A DNA stretch of 64,000 bases. It comes from Cytophagaceae bacterium. Lineage in GTDB: Bacteria > Bacteroidota > Bacteroidia > Cytophagales > JAIYAX01. The notes under the pieces are model-generated. The model was not told where the DNA came from, ran no database searches, and saw only the letters and a list, made by a program, of their open reading frames with translations. The stretch covers positions 1-64,000 of the forward strand of contig JAIYAX010000001.1 in assembly GCA_027488815.1 (NCBI GenBank), written 5' to 3'. Of this stretch, positions 16,564 to 23,494 are shown one piece after another. The number at the start of each line of letters is the position of its first letter. Within the stretch, counting starts at the first letter, position 1. The translations under genes were made by a program, and so were the position numbers.

Positions 16564-17376
16564 TTACTTGTTTTTGTTTGGGTTACTTCCTCTTGGCTCA
16601 GGGTTGTTTATGAGCTCACTCAACAAGTAGTCTGTTTTACTGCGCTGTAGTTGCTGATTCTCTTGCATTGCGGTTAAAGCCATCTCTATTTTCTTCAAAT
16701 CTTCATCTCTCCGGCTGTCATAGTAGGTGTTCAGGCTTGACAGCAGCTTGTCGACATAAACCTGGTTTTGCCGACGCTCATCGTTGAGCATGGCTGTCAG
16801 GGTTTGATTGGTCTCCAACCTGAATTGGCCAAGAGTAGCCAGCAATTCTTCTTTGGTAATTAATTCTCCATCTTCCGGCTTAAGGGGGCCTTTGGGGGTA
16901 TTTGAAGCCCTGGGAAGTTGATTTAACTTTTGCTGCAATTGCATCAGTCTGATTTCGAGGCTGTCGTTTTTGGATTGCTGTGCAGCGATGAGCTGGATCA
17001 CCTCTTCTTTGCTGAGACCTGACTGCTGTTTGGATTGACCAGCTACCGCCAGTTCTTGCTTAGGATCAACCTGACCTGAATTGCCCCAAAGAATCACTGC
17101 AAGGGCCACAAAGAGGGGCAGTAATGCTGCAGCTACCCTGAACCAGTTTTGCTGCCAGATGCCTATGGAGGGAGCCTGGGTGGGGATGATAAGCGGCTGA
17201 GGGAGTTCTTCGTCTTTAAGCTCCGACATCAGCAGTTTTGTCTGTTCCAGTGCTTTTAGTTCTGCTGCCAAAGAGGGGTTTTGCTGCAACTTCAGGTCTA
17301 TTTTCTCCTTGGTCTTGCAATCAAGCTCACCATACAGGTAGCTGATCAGTTGTGATTTATCCGGGTTAATGTCCAT
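16564..17376 (-). CDS. Probable anti-sigma factor (membrane)
   Basis: This 270-residue protein has a short cytosolic N-terminal part (ISYLYGELD..KIDLKLQQNPSL, residues 11-37) typical of zinc-free anti-sigma domains. One transmembrane helix spans about 80-97, and a helical Gln-rich periplasmic part has coiled-coil character. It overlaps the sigma-factor gene by 11 bases, the usual coupling of an ECF sigma with its membrane inhibitor. Assignment rests mostly on position and topology. Confidence 0.85.
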   Translation of the reverse strand: MDINPDKSQLISYLYGELDCKTKEKIDLKLQQNPSLAAELKALEQTKLLMSELKDEELPQPLIIPTQAPSIGIWQQNWFRVAAALLPLFVALAVILWGNSGQVDPKQELAVAGQSKQQSGLSKEEVIQLIAAQQSKNDSLEIRLMQLQQKLNQLPRASNTPKGPLKPEDGELITKEELLATLGQFRLETNQTLTAMLNDERRQNQVYVDKLLSSLNTYYDSRRDEDLKKIEMALTAMQENQQLQRSKTDYLLSELINNPEPRGSNPNKNK

Positions 17377-17968
17377 AACTCAGTGTTTCTTTAGTAATGT
17401 TCCAGCGGTTCAAAATTTTTCTCAAATGATCAAGTCCATAATACAACCTCGACTTAGCGGTGTTTTCTGAAATCTGAAGTACCTCTGCGATCTCATGAAA
17501 CTTAAATCCTTCATACTCTTTCATGATCACAACCAGCCTCTGCTCTTCTGAAAGCAAGCCAAGGGCTTTCTTTAGTATCTGCGAAAGCTCTTCCTGCTCA
17601 AAACTTCGCATCGGGTGGTGCTCACTTTCAGGCTCAGGATAAAAACGACCTTCTTCATCGGAGGCATTTCCAAACTGTACCTGGGTGGTTCGGGCACTGC
17701 GTCGTTTTTCATCATGGCAATAATTTGCCGCAATGGTGTACAACCAGGATCTGAACTGCCCATGATCCTTCAATGTGTGTAGTTTGGAACACATGGTGAT
17801 GAAGGTCTTCTGGGTGATTTCCATCGCCACATCATGGTTGCCAAAATACTTCAGACAAAAGTTATAAATTCGTTTCTGCCATACCTGTACCAAACGGGTA
17901 ATCGCAACCTGCTGCCCTTTGGCAGCATCGGCGATCAGTTGGTCAGTGTACATGGTGCCTGATTTCAT
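17366..17968 (-). CDS. ECF RNA polymerase sigma factor
   Basis: This is a 200-residue sigma-70 family protein with region 2 (IYNFCLKYFGNHDVAMEITQ then FRSWLYTIAANYCHDEKRR) and region 4 (LSEEQRLVVIMKEYEG then ISENTAKSRLYYGL). Region 3 is missing, as in ECF factors. An alternative start is Met6 (17953). It is the first gene of a sigma/anti-sigma/secreted-protein operon and should direct transcription in response to an envelope signal. Confidence 0.95.
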   Translation of the reverse strand: MKSGTMYTDQLIADAAKGQQVAITRLVQVWQKRIYNFCLKYFGNHDVAMEITQKTFITMCSKLHTLKDHGQFRSWLYTIAANYCHDEKRRSARTTQVQFGNASDEEGRFYPEPESEHHPMRSFEQEELSQILKKALGLLSEEQRLVVIMKEYEGFKFHEIAEVLQISENTAKSRLYYGLDHLRKILNRWNITKETLSYGH

Positions 17969-18036: not shown

Positions 18037-18702
18037 TTAGGTGTTCCTGCTCACCAACAAGCCCTCTGCCGTCATTCGGCTGATGGTTTGCCTTTTCCCC
18101 ATGTACTCGATCACCAAAGATCCATCAAAAGTTACCCGTTCAATCAATTTGAATTCTATCCCAATCCTGATTTCAAGGTGGCTAAGGTACTGCAGATAGG
18201 TGGGGTCATTCCCTTTCACAGCCAGAAGGGTGACCACTTCACCCGTTTCCACTTGGTTGATGGGTATGGCCGCCAATGGTTCTAGATGTCCGTCCGAATC
18301 GGGTATGTAGTCACCATGTGGATCAACCTTTGGGTATCCCAGAAAAAAATCCAGCCGGTCAATCAGTTTTGCGGATTGGATATGCTCCAGTTGCTCTGCC
18401 ACTTCATGTACTTCATCCCAACTGAAACCCAGTGTGTCATGAAGAAATGTCTCCCAAAGGCGATGCTTCCTCAAAATCCCCACTGCCAGGGCTCTTCCTG
18501 ACTCATTCAGACTTATTTTGCCGTATTTCTGATAATTGATCCAACCCCTGTTCCTTAATCGCTTCAGCATATCATGCACTGACGAAGGCTTTACCTGAAG
18601 GTAGGCCGCTAATTCATTGGTGCCCACTTGTCCTTCTGCTAAGGGCTCATTACCCAGTCTGAGCAGGGCTTTGAGGTAGTTTTCTTCCGTGATACTTGGC
18701 AT
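18037..18702 (-). CDS. DtxR/MntR-family metal-dependent repressor
   Basis: This is a 222-residue regulator (ATG start at 18702; an upstream TTG at 18708 is less likely because it almost touches the promoter box). It has an N-terminal winged helix (about 8-65), a dimerisation domain with metal ligands in the DtxR spacing (RKHRLWE, then EVHEVAEQLEH), and a C-terminal FeoA/SH3-like domain. With Mn2+ or Fe2+ bound, such proteins repress metal-uptake genes. It is divergent from a TonB-dependent receptor, with a matching operator between them (18739-18754). Whether it senses Mn or Fe cannot be decided from sequence. Confidence 0.93.
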   Translation of the reverse strand: MPSITEENYLKALLRLGNEPLAEGQVGTNELAAYLQVKPSSVHDMLKRLRNRGWINYQKYGKISLNESGRALAVGILRKHRLWETFLHDTLGFSWDEVHEVAEQLEHIQSAKLIDRLDFFLGYPKVDPHGDYIPDSDGHLEPLAAIPINQVETGEVVTLLAVKGNDPTYLQYLSHLEIRIGIEFKLIERVTFDGSLVIEYMGKRQTISRMTAEGLLVSRNT

Positions 18703-18709
18703 GACCAAG

Positions 18710-18717
18710 CAAAATTA
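18710..18717 (-). promoter_or_regulatory. -7 promoter element of the DtxR/MntR-like gene
   Basis: TAATTTTG on the minus strand ends 7 bases before the ATG at 18702, predicting a very short leader. This supports ATG 18702 over TTG 18708. Confidence 0.5.
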
Positions 18718-18738
18718 GATAAACTTTGCATTTACTTG

Positions 18739-18754
18739 TTAGACCTGCCTAACT
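18739..18754 (+). promoter_or_regulatory. DtxR/MntR-type operator
   Basis: GTTAGACCTGCCTAAC has perfect 5-bp arms GTTAG / CTAAC around a 6-bp centre, close to operators of the DtxR/MntR family. It lies exactly between a TTG (18737-18739, -33 region) and a TAATTTTG -7 box (18760-18767) of the TonB receptor gene. A bound repressor would therefore occlude RNA polymerase. Confidence 0.75.
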
Positions 18755-18759
18755 TTACT

Positions 18760-18767
18760 AATTTTGC
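18760..18767 (+). promoter_or_regulatory. -7 promoter element of the TonB receptor gene
   Basis: TAATTTTG matches TAnnTTTG; a TTG lies 20 bases upstream. The start codon follows 15 bases after the box. Confidence 0.6.
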
Positions 18768-18782
18768 AGCCCAAACATTTGT

Positions 18783-21077
18783 ATGAACTTCCGTTTTCTG
18801 GCTCTCGTTATCACTCTCCTCCTGGGTATTTCTGCCTGGGGACAGACGATCCGGGGTTTGGTAAAAGCAGAGGGTGAGCCCTTGCCTTATGCAACACTTC
18901 AATGGTCAGGCTCAAAAGGCCTGGCAGCTGACTCGTTGGGTCGCTTTGTGTTGGATGCCACCGAACTCAAAGAACTGACCATAACCGTTTCAGCGTTAGG
19001 TTACAAAAGCCAACAGGTCAAAATCCCGGCGACAAACAAACTTTCAAGACTGTGGGTGATTAGTCTTTCACCTACTTCAGAGCAACTCAACGAAGTAGTC
19101 GTGAGTGGAACTTTAAGCCCCAGAAGCAAATCTGAGAGTGCGGTAGCGGTAGAACGCTATGAGGCCTCTTTCTTCAAATCCAACCCGACCAATAACCTGC
19201 TGGAGGCGATGGGGCAGATCAATGGGCTTCGTCCGCAGATTAACTGCGGGGTTTGCTACACCGGAGATCTCAGAATCAATGGATTGGACGGTCCCTACAC
19301 GATGGTGTTAATTGATGGTACTCCAATTGTAAGTGGGTTGGGCACAGTTTATGGATTTAGTGGCATCCCAACAGGCCTGATCGAGCGTGTAGAGGTTATA
19401 AAAGGGCCGGCATCAACCCTTTACGGATCAGAGGCTGTGGCGGGCATGATCAACATCATTACCCAATCTCCTGCTAAAAAACCGGCCTTTACCGCAGACA
19501 TTTGGGGGAGCACCTGGCTGGAGAAGAACGCTGATTTAGGGATGGGATATAGGCTGTCACCAAAGATCAAAGCGCTAAGTGGCATCAATCTTTACCATTA
19601 TGGAAGCCCCAAAGACCAGAACGGAGATGGATTTATGGATGTACCGCTTCAGAGCCGTTTCTCAGCCTTTCAAAAATTTGACTGGGAAAGAAACCGTGGA
19701 AGAAGTGCTTCCATTGCCGGCAGATGGGTGATGGAAGACCGGTTGGGTGGACAAATGAACTACCGTCGAGAGTTTCGGGGAGGTGACAGTGTGTATGGTG
19801 AACAAATCAGTACACGACGCTGGGAATTGCTGGGGCACTATGATCTGCCGGTAAATCAAAAAATGCGGCTGACCTACAGCCTCAACAGCCATGAGCAAAA
19901 CAGCATGTATGGCACCAGTCCCTATGTGGCTTCCCAATACATTGGATTTTTACAGGCTACCTGGGACAAATCTCTCGGCAGCAAATCAAAATGGCTTAAT
20001 GGGTTGGCTTATCGGTTTTCCTGGTACGATGACAATACCCCTGCCACTCAAACGGCTGACGGGTCCCGAAGAAATCTACCTGCTTCGACACCACTGCCGG
20101 GATTTTTTAGCCAGTATGAATGGAGACCCGGTTCGCAAAATACACTGCTTGCAGGGATCAGGTGGGATCAGCATCCTGTTCATGGGCAGATATTTTCGCC
20201 TCGCTTAAACTATAAATTGAGTAGCAAAGACCAAAGGAGCAGCTTAAGGCTAGCCCTTGGAAATGGCTTCCGTGTGGCCAATGTTTTCACCGAAGACCAT
20301 GCTGCACTAAGCGGAGCCAGAAGAGTGGTTTTCACTGAAAATCTGAGACCTGAGCAATCATACAACCTTACCTTGAATGCAAGTCACGGTATCTTTCATT
20401 TCTCCGATTTCAATTTGCTGATGGATGCTTCTGCATTCATTACCCACTTCAGTAACCGCATACTTCCCGACTATGACACTGATCCCAATTTGATAATTTA
20501 CAGCAACCTGAACGGTTTTGCCCGGTCTCAGGGAGTTTCGGCCAATATCGATGCGGATTTTGTGAATGGCCTGGACATTAAACTAGGTGCCACCTTAATG
20601 GATGTATCCGTATTTGAAGAAGGAACACGTAGACGCCAGCCATTTACAGAGCAGTTTTCAGCTGTCTGGACCATAGGTTACCGTCTTCCCACAACTAAAC
20701 TCAGGATCGATTATACAGGAACTCTTTACAGCCCCATGCGCTTGCCCTTGCTGGGTGAGCTTGATCCAAGAAGTGATCATTCACCCTGGTGGAGCATCCA
20801 AAATCTTCAGATCAATTACCTGCATTCAGAGGCCATTGAGTTTTATGTATCCATCAAGAACCTGCTCAACTGGACACCTGCACAACGTACACCCTTCTTA
20901 ATTGCGAGGGCTAATGACCCTTTTGATCGGCAAGTAGAGACGGATGCTCAGGGACGGATCCTTGCCACAGCAGCCAATCCCTATGCTCTCAGTTTTGACC
21001 CCACCAATGTGTATGCACCCAATCAGGGCATTCGGGCACTGATCGGAATCAGGCTGAAGTTGAGTAAAGGCAAGTAA
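18783..21077 (+). CDS. TonB-dependent receptor, probable metal uptake
   Basis: This is a 764-residue outer-membrane receptor: signal peptide (cleavage near 20/21), CarboxypepD_reg-like domain (about 22-100), TonB-box region, plug domain (about 115-230) with LIDGTPIV and KGPASTLYGSEA, then a 22-strand-type barrel with a C-terminal aromatic-poor strand (ALIGIRLKL). The plug holds an unusual CGVC motif (155-158) at the tip, which could coordinate a metal or form a disulfide. A DtxR/MntR-type operator overlaps its promoter, so uptake of Mn or Fe, or a chelate of either, is likely. Length is normal. Confidence 0.93.
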   Translation: MNFRFLALVITLLLGISAWGQTIRGLVKAEGEPLPYATLQWSGSKGLAADSLGRFVLDATELKELTITVSALGYKSQQVKIPATNKLSRLWVISLSPTSEQLNEVVVSGTLSPRSKSESAVAVERYEASFFKSNPTNNLLEAMGQINGLRPQINCGVCYTGDLRINGLDGPYTMVLIDGTPIVSGLGTVYGFSGIPTGLIERVEVIKGPASTLYGSEAVAGMINIITQSPAKKPAFTADIWGSTWLEKNADLGMGYRLSPKIKALSGINLYHYGSPKDQNGDGFMDVPLQSRFSAFQKFDWERNRGRSASIAGRWVMEDRLGGQMNYRREFRGGDSVYGEQISTRRWELLGHYDLPVNQKMRLTYSLNSHEQNSMYGTSPYVASQYIGFLQATWDKSLGSKSKWLNGLAYRFSWYDDNTPATQTADGSRRNLPASTPLPGFFSQYEWRPGSQNTLLAGIRWDQHPVHGQIFSPRLNYKLSSKDQRSSLRLALGNGFRVANVFTEDHAALSGARRVVFTENLRPEQSYNLTLNASHGIFHFSDFNLLMDASAFITHFSNRILPDYDTDPNLIIYSNLNGFARSQGVSANIDADFVNGLDIKLGATLMDVSVFEEGTRRRQPFTEQFSAVWTIGYRLPTTKLRIDYTGTLYSPMRLPLLGELDPRSDHSPWWSIQNLQINYLHSEAIEFYVSIKNLLNWTPAQRTPFLIARANDPFDRQVETDAQGRILATAANPYALSFDPTNVYAPNQGIRALIGIRLKLSKGK

Positions 21078-21109: not shown

Positions 21110-23494
21110 TTACAATCCCACGCTCAATGCGACTTTGAGCACCAGATTTTCACGGGTATTCGGCAGGGCATACGGCCCATAGCGCATGAATACCCCTGCT
21201 CCAAGCCCGGTTTTAAGACCTGCCGCTTGCAGGACGAGCAAATGATGCAACACAAATCCACTTTCAAAGTAACCCCGTTCCATTGATCGGGTGCTGATGC
21301 CAAGATGTTCTGAGGCATTTTTCAGGCTGCCCCAGCCCATGTTGTGACTAAGGTCCAGCTCAGGGCTAAACCATCGTAAGCCATAGGCCAAAGGCAATTT
21401 GCCCAGTTGAAAAGTGAAATGGATGGTGGCAAATTCATCCATCAGAAACTCATTAAAACCCATCGTTTCAAAAGAGTTGTGACTGACGGCTGATAGCGAC
21501 CTGAAGCTACCTCTTGCCTGAAAAAGCCTGCTGAAAGGCAGCTCACCGATGGCCCTCCCCAACCTGATTTGTGTATGAAAAGTACCAACCCCTATACGCT
21601 TGTAACTGTGAACCGTCCGAAACTCCCACTGCCTGTAGTTAAGCGAGCCCAGGCCCTGTAAGACTCTGAAATAGAAAACAGGAAACGGGGTTTTCAGCGA
21701 GATTTGATCATTTGTCAGTCGGATTTTACGTTCACCAAAAGCATATCTCGCTTCTCCAAAAAGTTCATTGAGGCTAAACTCATCCCTGTTGGCCGATTGC
21801 CCCTCAGCTATCCATTCATAGAGGTACAAAGGGCTGCGCCTGCTGTGAGAAACCCCAAAGAGAATGTCTGTGTAATCAGCGGGGTGCCATTGGCTTTGAA
21901 CACTAAGTTTTCTCTCCAGATCAAACACCAGTAGCCGGACTTTACGAAGTGCTTCAGAGGCAAACTGCCTTTTGTACAAAAGCATCTCAACGTTTCCCGG
22001 CTCTGATAAATCTTCAGAAACCTCCGCATAAAAAGGTTGATTTCGTCGACCCTTGCTGTACCAGCCCAGGGTAGCACCGCCCTTCATCCTGTTGTCCTGC
22101 AGGCCGTAAGCCAAGTAAGCTCCTAACTCCCATTGCTCAGAAAACCGGGTGTTTGTCCGGCCGCCAAGACCTATCCTCAACCCTTCAAAATCATTCACCT
22201 GCACTACTTTGGAGAGTTCAACGTCAACCTTACCAACCGGAACGAAACCCGCATTCAAACGTCGGCCAAGAAATAAGTAGTTGGAGAGGCTACTGATTTT
22301 TCCTAAACGATGGTAAAATCCGGAGGTTGCTGCTTCTTCAGCACTTAGTGGAACAGGCCGTTTCAACTCGTTTTCTGCTGCATCAGCACTAAATATGACG
22401 GCTTCTTCCTGTGGCCATTGGAGACCTTGATCTGTCTGAACAGGCACAGCCGGTTCAAAGTGCTGTGACATATACCCTTCCAAAAGCAGGGGTTCACGGT
22501 TCACGACTTCCTGATCGTATCGGGTGTAAATGTTTTCAGGCAGCCAGGTTTGATTGGTGTCACTTTTTTGTCGAAGACACCAGCGCAGAGAAGAGTTTTG
22601 GTCCAAGTCAGGATAAGCTTCTACAGCATAAATGGCCATACTGCGGGTTTCCAACCAGAAATAGCCTCTCAGTTTTTCATAACGATTTCGTTCTTTTTTA
22701 GGGCTAAACTGAAAAAGAAGCAAGTCATGCCCATCAACAAAAAGAGTGTCTAAGAGCTTGTAGTGGTAATAATAGGATGAAGATGAGTGAGCAAAGCTTT
22801 GGAAGCTACTACCGGCAATGCTCAAAGTTCTGTTGTACACATGAAAAGACTGCACAAAGGCTGGTATACCAAGTCCGGAAGGCCTCTCCACCCCGCTGAT
22901 CGAAGATGCACTGATCCACTCCTGATCCGTCCATCGCCCGGTTTTGCGCTTGGTTCCTGAACTCTCCACCAGCAGCAGGCGGTAGGGCTGTTGAAAGGCT
23001 GGCCAACGAATGCCCAATGCCCACATGTACCCTTTCAGGTAGGTATCCATTCGCTCCGGATTGCGGCTACCCACACTTAGCCTGGTGTAAAACGGTATGT
23101 TAAAACTTCCACTTAGGTCAGGATTATGTACCGAGCCAGCCGCCAGCATCTTGCTGCTCCAGGAGGCACTCAGACTATCTGTTTCCTTCAGCACGCCGGC
23201 TTGCTCATAACGCAGCATTCGAAGGGTGGTAGTGGTATCCGAGGTTTGAAAATAAAAAGGTCGGTATTGGGGCTTATTCAAAAGAATTTGAACGGGCACC
23301 GAATCCCTTGAAAATGTCAGGACACCATCCGCATCAGATAGACCCGCAGGTCCGTCTGGTAATGTCCAATAGTGAACAAAGGAAACAGGTCGGCCATCCA
23401 AGGCATCGACGATTTTCAGGCTTGTTTGCTGAGAATAGCCAATCAAGCAGAACAAAAAGAAAACCAAGGAGACAAGCCCCAGCGATGGCCTCAT
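21110..23494 (-). CDS. DUF5686-like outer-membrane barrel protein
   Basis: This is a 794-residue protein with a signal peptide (cleavage after GYSQ, about 21), a carboxypeptidase-regulatory-like domain (25-95), a central domain containing YYYHYKLLDTLFVDGHD and a Y/T-rich W-L-E-T strand set, and a long C-terminal part that looks like a beta-barrel. This layout matches DUF5686-family proteins of Bacteroidota, of unknown function. It overlaps the upstream patatin gene by 4 bases (ATGA), so both are made together, suggesting a shared envelope-lipid role. Confidence 0.85.
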   Translation of the reverse strand: MRPSLGLVSLVFFLFCLIGYSQQTSLKIVDALDGRPVSFVHYWTLPDGPAGLSDADGVLTFSRDSVPVQILLNKPQYRPFYFQTSDTTTTLRMLRYEQAGVLKETDSLSASWSSKMLAAGSVHNPDLSGSFNIPFYTRLSVGSRNPERMDTYLKGYMWALGIRWPAFQQPYRLLLVESSGTKRKTGRWTDQEWISASSISGVERPSGLGIPAFVQSFHVYNRTLSIAGSSFQSFAHSSSSYYYHYKLLDTLFVDGHDLLLFQFSPKKERNRYEKLRGYFWLETRSMAIYAVEAYPDLDQNSSLRWCLRQKSDTNQTWLPENIYTRYDQEVVNREPLLLEGYMSQHFEPAVPVQTDQGLQWPQEEAVIFSADAAENELKRPVPLSAEEAATSGFYHRLGKISSLSNYLFLGRRLNAGFVPVGKVDVELSKVVQVNDFEGLRIGLGGRTNTRFSEQWELGAYLAYGLQDNRMKGGATLGWYSKGRRNQPFYAEVSEDLSEPGNVEMLLYKRQFASEALRKVRLLVFDLERKLSVQSQWHPADYTDILFGVSHSRRSPLYLYEWIAEGQSANRDEFSLNELFGEARYAFGERKIRLTNDQISLKTPFPVFYFRVLQGLGSLNYRQWEFRTVHSYKRIGVGTFHTQIRLGRAIGELPFSRLFQARGSFRSLSAVSHNSFETMGFNEFLMDEFATIHFTFQLGKLPLAYGLRWFSPELDLSHNMGWGSLKNASEHLGISTRSMERGYFESGFVLHHLLVLQAAGLKTGLGAGVFMRYGPYALPNTRENLVLKVALSVGL

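Follow-up and report, generated by a model that had tools for sequence, protein, structure and literature searches.

The 80-bp gap at positions 18703-18782 of the window (the whole 64-kb stretch of DNA that was analysed) very probably holds a Bacteroidota metal-uptake switch, in which an MntR-like repressor bound at the palindrome GTTAGACCTGCCTAAC would shut off a divergently encoded TonB-dependent receptor. Systems of this kind are already known, and the present one is a variant from the Bacteroidota, distinguished by its operator, its promoter setting and its pair of paralogous regulators. What is new is the Bacteroidota operator itself, its occurrence in two flavours which follow the clade of the regulator, and the existence of genomes containing both flavours, one for each paralog. 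Metal regulation in the Bacteroidota has been little charted, and a defined operator makes candidate MntR regulons readable from their genomes, names a receptor family that likely imports manganese through the outer membrane, and provides a natural two-paralog system for how closely related repressors keep their sites apart.

The gap spans exactly 80 bp and separates the mntR-like regulator gene (18037-18702, minus strand; ATG at 18702; 221 amino acids), assigned on the basis of Pfam matches and a solved relative, from the TonB-dependent receptor gene (18783-21077, plus strand; ATG at 18783; 764 amino acids), assigned from Pfam matches and an AlphaFold2 model. These open reading frames agree with the divergent orientation claimed in a preliminary description of this DNA. 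The G-type operator, the 16-mer GTTAGACCTGCCTAAC, occupies positions 18738-18753 and is delimited by its sequence and its conservation in relatives, with the core TTAG-N6-CTAA at 18739-18752. The receptor promoter comprises a TTG at 18736-18738 (plus strand), found at the same place in the G-type relatives, and TAATTTTG at 18759-18766 (plus strand), six bases past the operator core, leaving a spacer of 20 bases; TTTG and TANNTTTG are taken here to be the -33 and -7 boxes of Bacteroidota promoters. Scanning this region for sigma-70 promoters returned two sites against 3.3 in shuffled sequences, a result that is uninformative for Bacteroidota. While the 16-mer does lie inside the promoter spacer, the preliminary description had placed it exactly between the two boxes, and in this it must be amended, as the first G of the operator is also the last G of the TTG. 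The TAATTTTG box ascribed to the regulator gene is likewise present (18710-18717, minus strand), but it stands only seven bases before the ATG and no TTG occurs at a fitting distance for a -33 box, so the regulator promoter is less certain. Since GTTAGACCTGCCTAAC also lies approximately 20 bases upstream of this candidate -7 box, the regulator probably controls its own expression. Downstream of the receptor gene, a gene for a DUF5686 protein (21110-23494) converges on it across a 33-bp gap, and the receptor gene thus seems to be transcribed alone.

In the proposed mechanism, the MntR-like protein (18037-18702), in its form with bound Mn(II) or perhaps Fe(II), would bind GTTAGACCTGCCTAAC as a dimer and fill the spacer that separates the -33 TTG from the -7 TAATTTTG, thereby turning the receptor gene off. 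When the metal is scarce the repressor would release the site, and the receptor, which carries a CxxC motif in its plug domain, would be made and would import the metal through the outer membrane. What the sequences show directly is the layout, a conserved site with conserved spacing, and an operator type that covaries with the clade of the regulator; binding, repression, metal identity and transport are inferred. The metal dependence of this repression is deduced from knowledge of the family and from the promoter geometry. The operators of DtxR/IdeR and of Bacillus MntR are palindromes with TTAG/CTAA-like arms, to which dimeric members of this family bind; the arms of the DtxR operator are TTAGGTTAGCCTAACCTAA, and their spacing differs from the TTAG-N6-CTAA observed here.

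Conservation of the site was assessed in 194 genomes of the same order, which were searched with the receptor and from which 69 orthologs (approximately 37-54 % identity, that of the window included) were taken. Allowing up to two mismatches to TTAGRCNNGYCTAA within 350 bp upstream, the site could be found for 57/69 of these orthologs and, by the same measure, for none of twenty control TonB receptors (26-29 % identity). The 69 order-level loci were combined with named loci, namely the best 80, by likeness to the query, of 579 stretches encoding a receptor relative. Among the resulting 149 receptor relatives, TTAG-N6-CTAA occurs within 250 bp upstream in 130, compared to 26/2980 shuffled upstream regions, while its absence from this interval in the remaining nineteen is counted against the switch. 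A divergent regulator gene lies within 400 bp in 58/80 best-matching named loci and 11/69 order-level loci, and in 64 of the 69 loci with such a regulator the site is located between both genes. This layout is present in Flavobacteriaceae, Cyclobacteriaceae, Sphingobacteriaceae, Chitinophagaceae and others. A palindrome in the promoter of the target gene is thus conserved together with the regulator, as in DtxR-family operators, and this phylogenetic footprint, together with the control receptors that lack the site, strongly supports the DtxR/MntR operator originally proposed.

The outermost base pairs distinguish two operator flavours, GTTAG..CTAAC (G-type) and TTTAG..CTAAA (T-type), with the 130 sites divided into 88 T..A, 36 G..C and six with mixed or other ends. 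In 34/36 G-type sites the outer G is the last base of a TTG, and in 30/36 TANNTTTG starts five to six bases past the core, a pair of offsets that is met at only 1 % of random places in the same upstream regions; the site in the window belongs to this arrangement. The promoter setting of the two types differs, as the G-type sites fill the spacer between the -33 and -7 boxes, while many T-type sites contain the -7 box (TAGNTTTG; 38/88 sites). Repression is taken as the mechanism because, in either arrangement, a dimer on the site would stand in the way of the polymerase. It could be argued that the outer G..C pair reflects a constraint of the promoter, being the last G of the -33 TTTG, rather than recognition by the repressor, and the coincidence of the outer G with the end of TTG in 34/36 G-type sites fits this explanation. 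However, the opposite end of these sites has the matching C of the palindrome, where no promoter box calls for one (36 G..C, 88 T..A, six other), and across 59 loci with both genes the operator type requires a single change on the regulator tree as opposed to four on the receptor tree, making such a constraint a rather unlikely source of the pair.

The exact 16-mer GTTAGACCTGCCTAAC is unique in the 3.37-Mb genome, and its palindromic consensus TTAGRYNNRYCTAA is matched at a single place in the window and was generated in 16/100000 shuffles of the 80-bp gap. The genome scan for the 16-bp site suggested in the preliminary description therefore yielded this single exact copy, but the degenerate pattern did not rise above a reversed-pattern control, with 16 versus 32 matches at up to three mismatches and 55 versus 126 per strand at up to one mismatch. 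Similarly, GTTAGRYNNRYCTAAC was found at 27 sites across the 194 genomes compared to approximately 64 in the control, while the strict T-type pattern was counted 25 times versus 12 in the control. Genome-wide counts of the 16-mer or the degenerate motif were dropped as evidence of a regulon, the reversed control being equal or higher, and the evidence for function consequently lies in position and conservation rather than in abundance. The lack of genome-wide excess would also suit a palindrome that arose by chance, or a structural feature without a protein partner. The conservation of the site at one place across the Bacteroidota, its absence from control receptors and its fixed phase relative to the promoter all speak against this, and in light of the footprinting such an origin is very improbable.

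The regulator consists of an N-terminal winged helix (PF01325; 5.7e-12), a metal-binding and dimerisation domain (PF02742; 2.1e-29) and a C-terminal FeoA domain (PF04023; 3.1e-9). Both its Fe_dep_repress and Fe_dep_repr_C matches are above the Pfam cut-off, which places it in the DtxR/MntR family, and its closest solved relative is the metal-dependent transcriptional regulator 5zr4 (6e-36). Its scores against the four NCBIfam equivalogs that it matches (three MntR, one DtxR) all stay below the respective curated cut-off, the best being NF047407 MntR at 158 bits versus a cut-off of 350. The canonical metal ligands attributed to it are nearly all in place. The residues H80, E84, H99, E103, E106 and H107, which together with position 8 we take to be the metal ligand positions, are present, but position 8 is Asn where MntR has Asp8 and DtxR, at the equivalent position, Met10. 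Asn occupies this position in 95/115 Bacteroidota regulators and Asp in the other 20/115. Conservation of the regulator's ligands is counted in favour of the switch. Because Asn8 departs from the ligand of the studied MntR and DtxR proteins, the choice of metal is not readable from the regulator sequence. Glu103 corresponds in position to Cys102 of DtxR, with Glu there as in MntR.

The receptor combines a CarboxypepD_reg-like domain (PF13715; 3.6e-12) with a plug domain (PF07715; 1.2e-18) followed by a beta-barrel, and its AlphaFold2 model (mean pLDDT 84.9) shows the standard fold of TonB receptors. The model matches Cir, FepA and BtuB with E-values of 1e-30 or better, which identifies it as a TonB-dependent receptor; as a clue to the substrate, these fold matches to solved structures were set aside, being generic for TonB receptors. 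The plug incorporates the motif C155-G-V-C158, of which both cysteines are retained in 69/69 order-level orthologs. In five relatives (L080, L081, L158, L159 and L161) the receptor gene is followed by a gene from the same thioredoxin-fold cluster as the one in the operon of the second MntR of the window's genome, and one of these (L158, in genome G068) has this gene grouped with those for the regulator, Nramp and the receptor.

The nearest known counterpart is the MntR-controlled TBDR-pTFP module of Stenotrophomonas maltophilia Sm18 (PMC13217887, 2026), for which synteny has been reported in Lysobacterales, Sphingomonadales and Opitutales, and the main text of which contains no word starting with 'Bacteroid'. 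The two share an MntR-box upstream of a TonB-dependent receptor, located between the -35 and -10 boxes in Sm18, as well as a CxxC motif in the plug (CQNC in Sm18), a thioredoxin-fold partner and proximity to mntR and mntH (PMC13217887). They differ in that the Sm18 module is proteobacterial and has a 25-bp palindrome, while the Bacteroidota operator measures 16 bp and is set in Bacteroidota-type promoter boxes. Furthermore, the plug motif here is C[NSGA][VI]C, with CGVC in the window and CQNC in 0/69 orthologs, so that the CQNC signature of the Stenotrophomonas family is absent among them, and in the genome of the window the thioredoxin-fold gene is found in the operon of a second MntR. The CarboxypepD_reg-like domain may be a further difference from the Sm18 receptor. 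Distant relatives of the receptor, all with 31 % identity or less, were found in nineteen plasmid records, none of which is from Sphingomonadales. TonB-dependent manganese uptake through the outer membrane has also been ascribed, in a citation of PMC13217887, to MnoT of Burkholderia thailandensis, which works with a secreted manganese-binding protein.

Within the Bacteroidota, the available passages of PMC4805248 describe PgMntR of Porphyromonas gingivalis as a DtxR-family MntR with FeoA domains, although as a twin copy instead of the single one found here, and with a target that is the FB2 transporter operon and not a TonB receptor. According to the same passages, PgMntR binds a 385-bp promoter fragment of its manganese transporter operon with an affinity raised by manganese, but it interacts with Fe(II) as well and can bind DNA in the metal-free state; simple manganese-dependent repression may thus not carry over. 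These passages contain no definition of the PgMntR operator, and the parts of PMC10434189 at hand present a P. gingivalis DtxR-family gene merely as iron-responsive. A literature search, with subscription papers mostly outside its reach, recognised neither a Bacteroidota MntR/DtxR operator nor an MntR-controlled TonB receptor in this group.

Manganese is considered a likelier effector than iron on the basis of the genes adjoining the motif, which include Nramp genes beside T-type sites (L281 and L286), a ZnuA-type ABC operon and an Fe/Mn SOD gene, and of the Stenotrophomonas counterpart (PMC13217887). A second mntR in the genome of the window is preceded by the same motif and heads a ZnuA/ABC-3 metal operon encoding, after the regulator, a binding protein of the ZnuA type, an ABC ATPase (by sequence), two permeases and, last, the thioredoxin-fold protein. 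A true DtxR-family operator with Fe(II) as effector, and a receptor importing an iron complex such as a siderophore or heme in place of manganese, would run counter to this gene company and to the MntR-like Glu103 at the position of DtxR Cys102. It would be consistent with the FeoA domain of the regulator, with the receptor's best solved matches being the iron and cobalamin receptors Cir, FepA and BtuB, all remote at approximately 15 % identity, and with the binding of Fe(II) by P. gingivalis MntR (available passages of PMC4805248), and on balance it appears unlikely.

In the second MntR operon, a permease of the ABC-3 type (L049, 5887-7101, minus strand) is fused C-terminally to a DtxR-type metal-binding (Fe_dep_repr_C) domain, and is possibly a metal-sensing transporter. 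The genome also contains a third perfect site, the T-type TTTAGACTTGTCTAAA (L141, 1500-1515; G000:C30:19970-19985), which begins directly past the stop codon of the Fe/Mn SOD gene, the product of which has a signal-like N-terminus, and ahead of an alpha/beta hydrolase gene.

The second MntR (contig C16) shares 44 % identity with the regulator in the window, and its promoter carries TTTAGACTTGTCTAAT. The upstream region of the second paralog was also taken from seven further genomes that have a G-type regulator (L299-L305), and all have T-type arms (7/7; TTTAG with CTAAA or CTAAT, the middle being off consensus in some). The outermost base pairs thus differ between the promoters of the two paralogs in 8/8 examined genomes with a G-type regulator, that of the window included. 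Five further stretches were fetched, of which three have T-type arms, one (L308) offers no more than a site with one mismatch and one (L310) proved to be that of a G-type regulator. A regulator tree was built from 79 of 115 collected sequences with a typed operator, excluding 28 without an acceptable site and eight with mixed ends. On this tree the operator type requires two changes, compared to 25 with shuffled labels; the regulator in the window falls inside one G-type clade of twelve rows (SH-aLRT 97), with another G-type clade comprising twenty rows. For the 59 loci with both genes, the one change on the regulator tree versus four on the receptor tree indicates that the operator type tracks the regulator more closely than it does the receptor. 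The operator could nonetheless be read mainly by the second MntR, or by both paralogs, and not by the divergent regulator, given that the core TTAG-N6-CTAA is common to both types and that relatives without a divergent regulator still have the site at the receptor gene. Both the different outermost pairs at the paralogs' own promoters (8/8) and the agreement of operator type with regulator clade (2 versus 25 changes) make this improbable, and the simplest reading of these sequences is that two paralogs would use separate sites in one cell.

Several residues differ between regulators of G- and T-type operators, including Lys62 or Pro versus Gly or Ala, Leu13 or Met versus Ile, mostly Val37 or Ile versus Thr, and mostly Thr41 versus Ser, with the regulator in the window having Ser at position 41. 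They are not claimed as recognition residues, as they are confounded by descent.

A wider generalisation, which is plausible but somewhat more apt to be wrong than right, is that many Bacteroidota possess two MntR paralogs with DNA codes insulated through the outermost pair, where the G-type code would serve a single plug-CxxC manganese importer of the outer membrane and the T-type code inner-membrane uptake and related genes. If this is true, the plug-CxxC receptors would constitute a widespread and hitherto unrecognised manganese receptor family.

Some minor features of these loci were also observed. Adjoining the regulator gene in the window, on the same strand, is a gene for an ECF-type sigma factor (17366-17968), overlapped downstream by a gene (16564-17376) without a Pfam match, the product of which is, judged by position, probably an anti-sigma factor; neither recurs across the receptor neighbourhoods compared. 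In G075 (L156, 3941-7200) a G-type regulator is divergent from an 811-amino-acid gene outside the receptor cluster, and as this genome has no receptor match the regulator may control another gene. Finally, in five genomes of one family (L299-L303) the promoter of the second mntR has two T-type sites located 76 bp apart, an arrangement that may allow cooperative binding.
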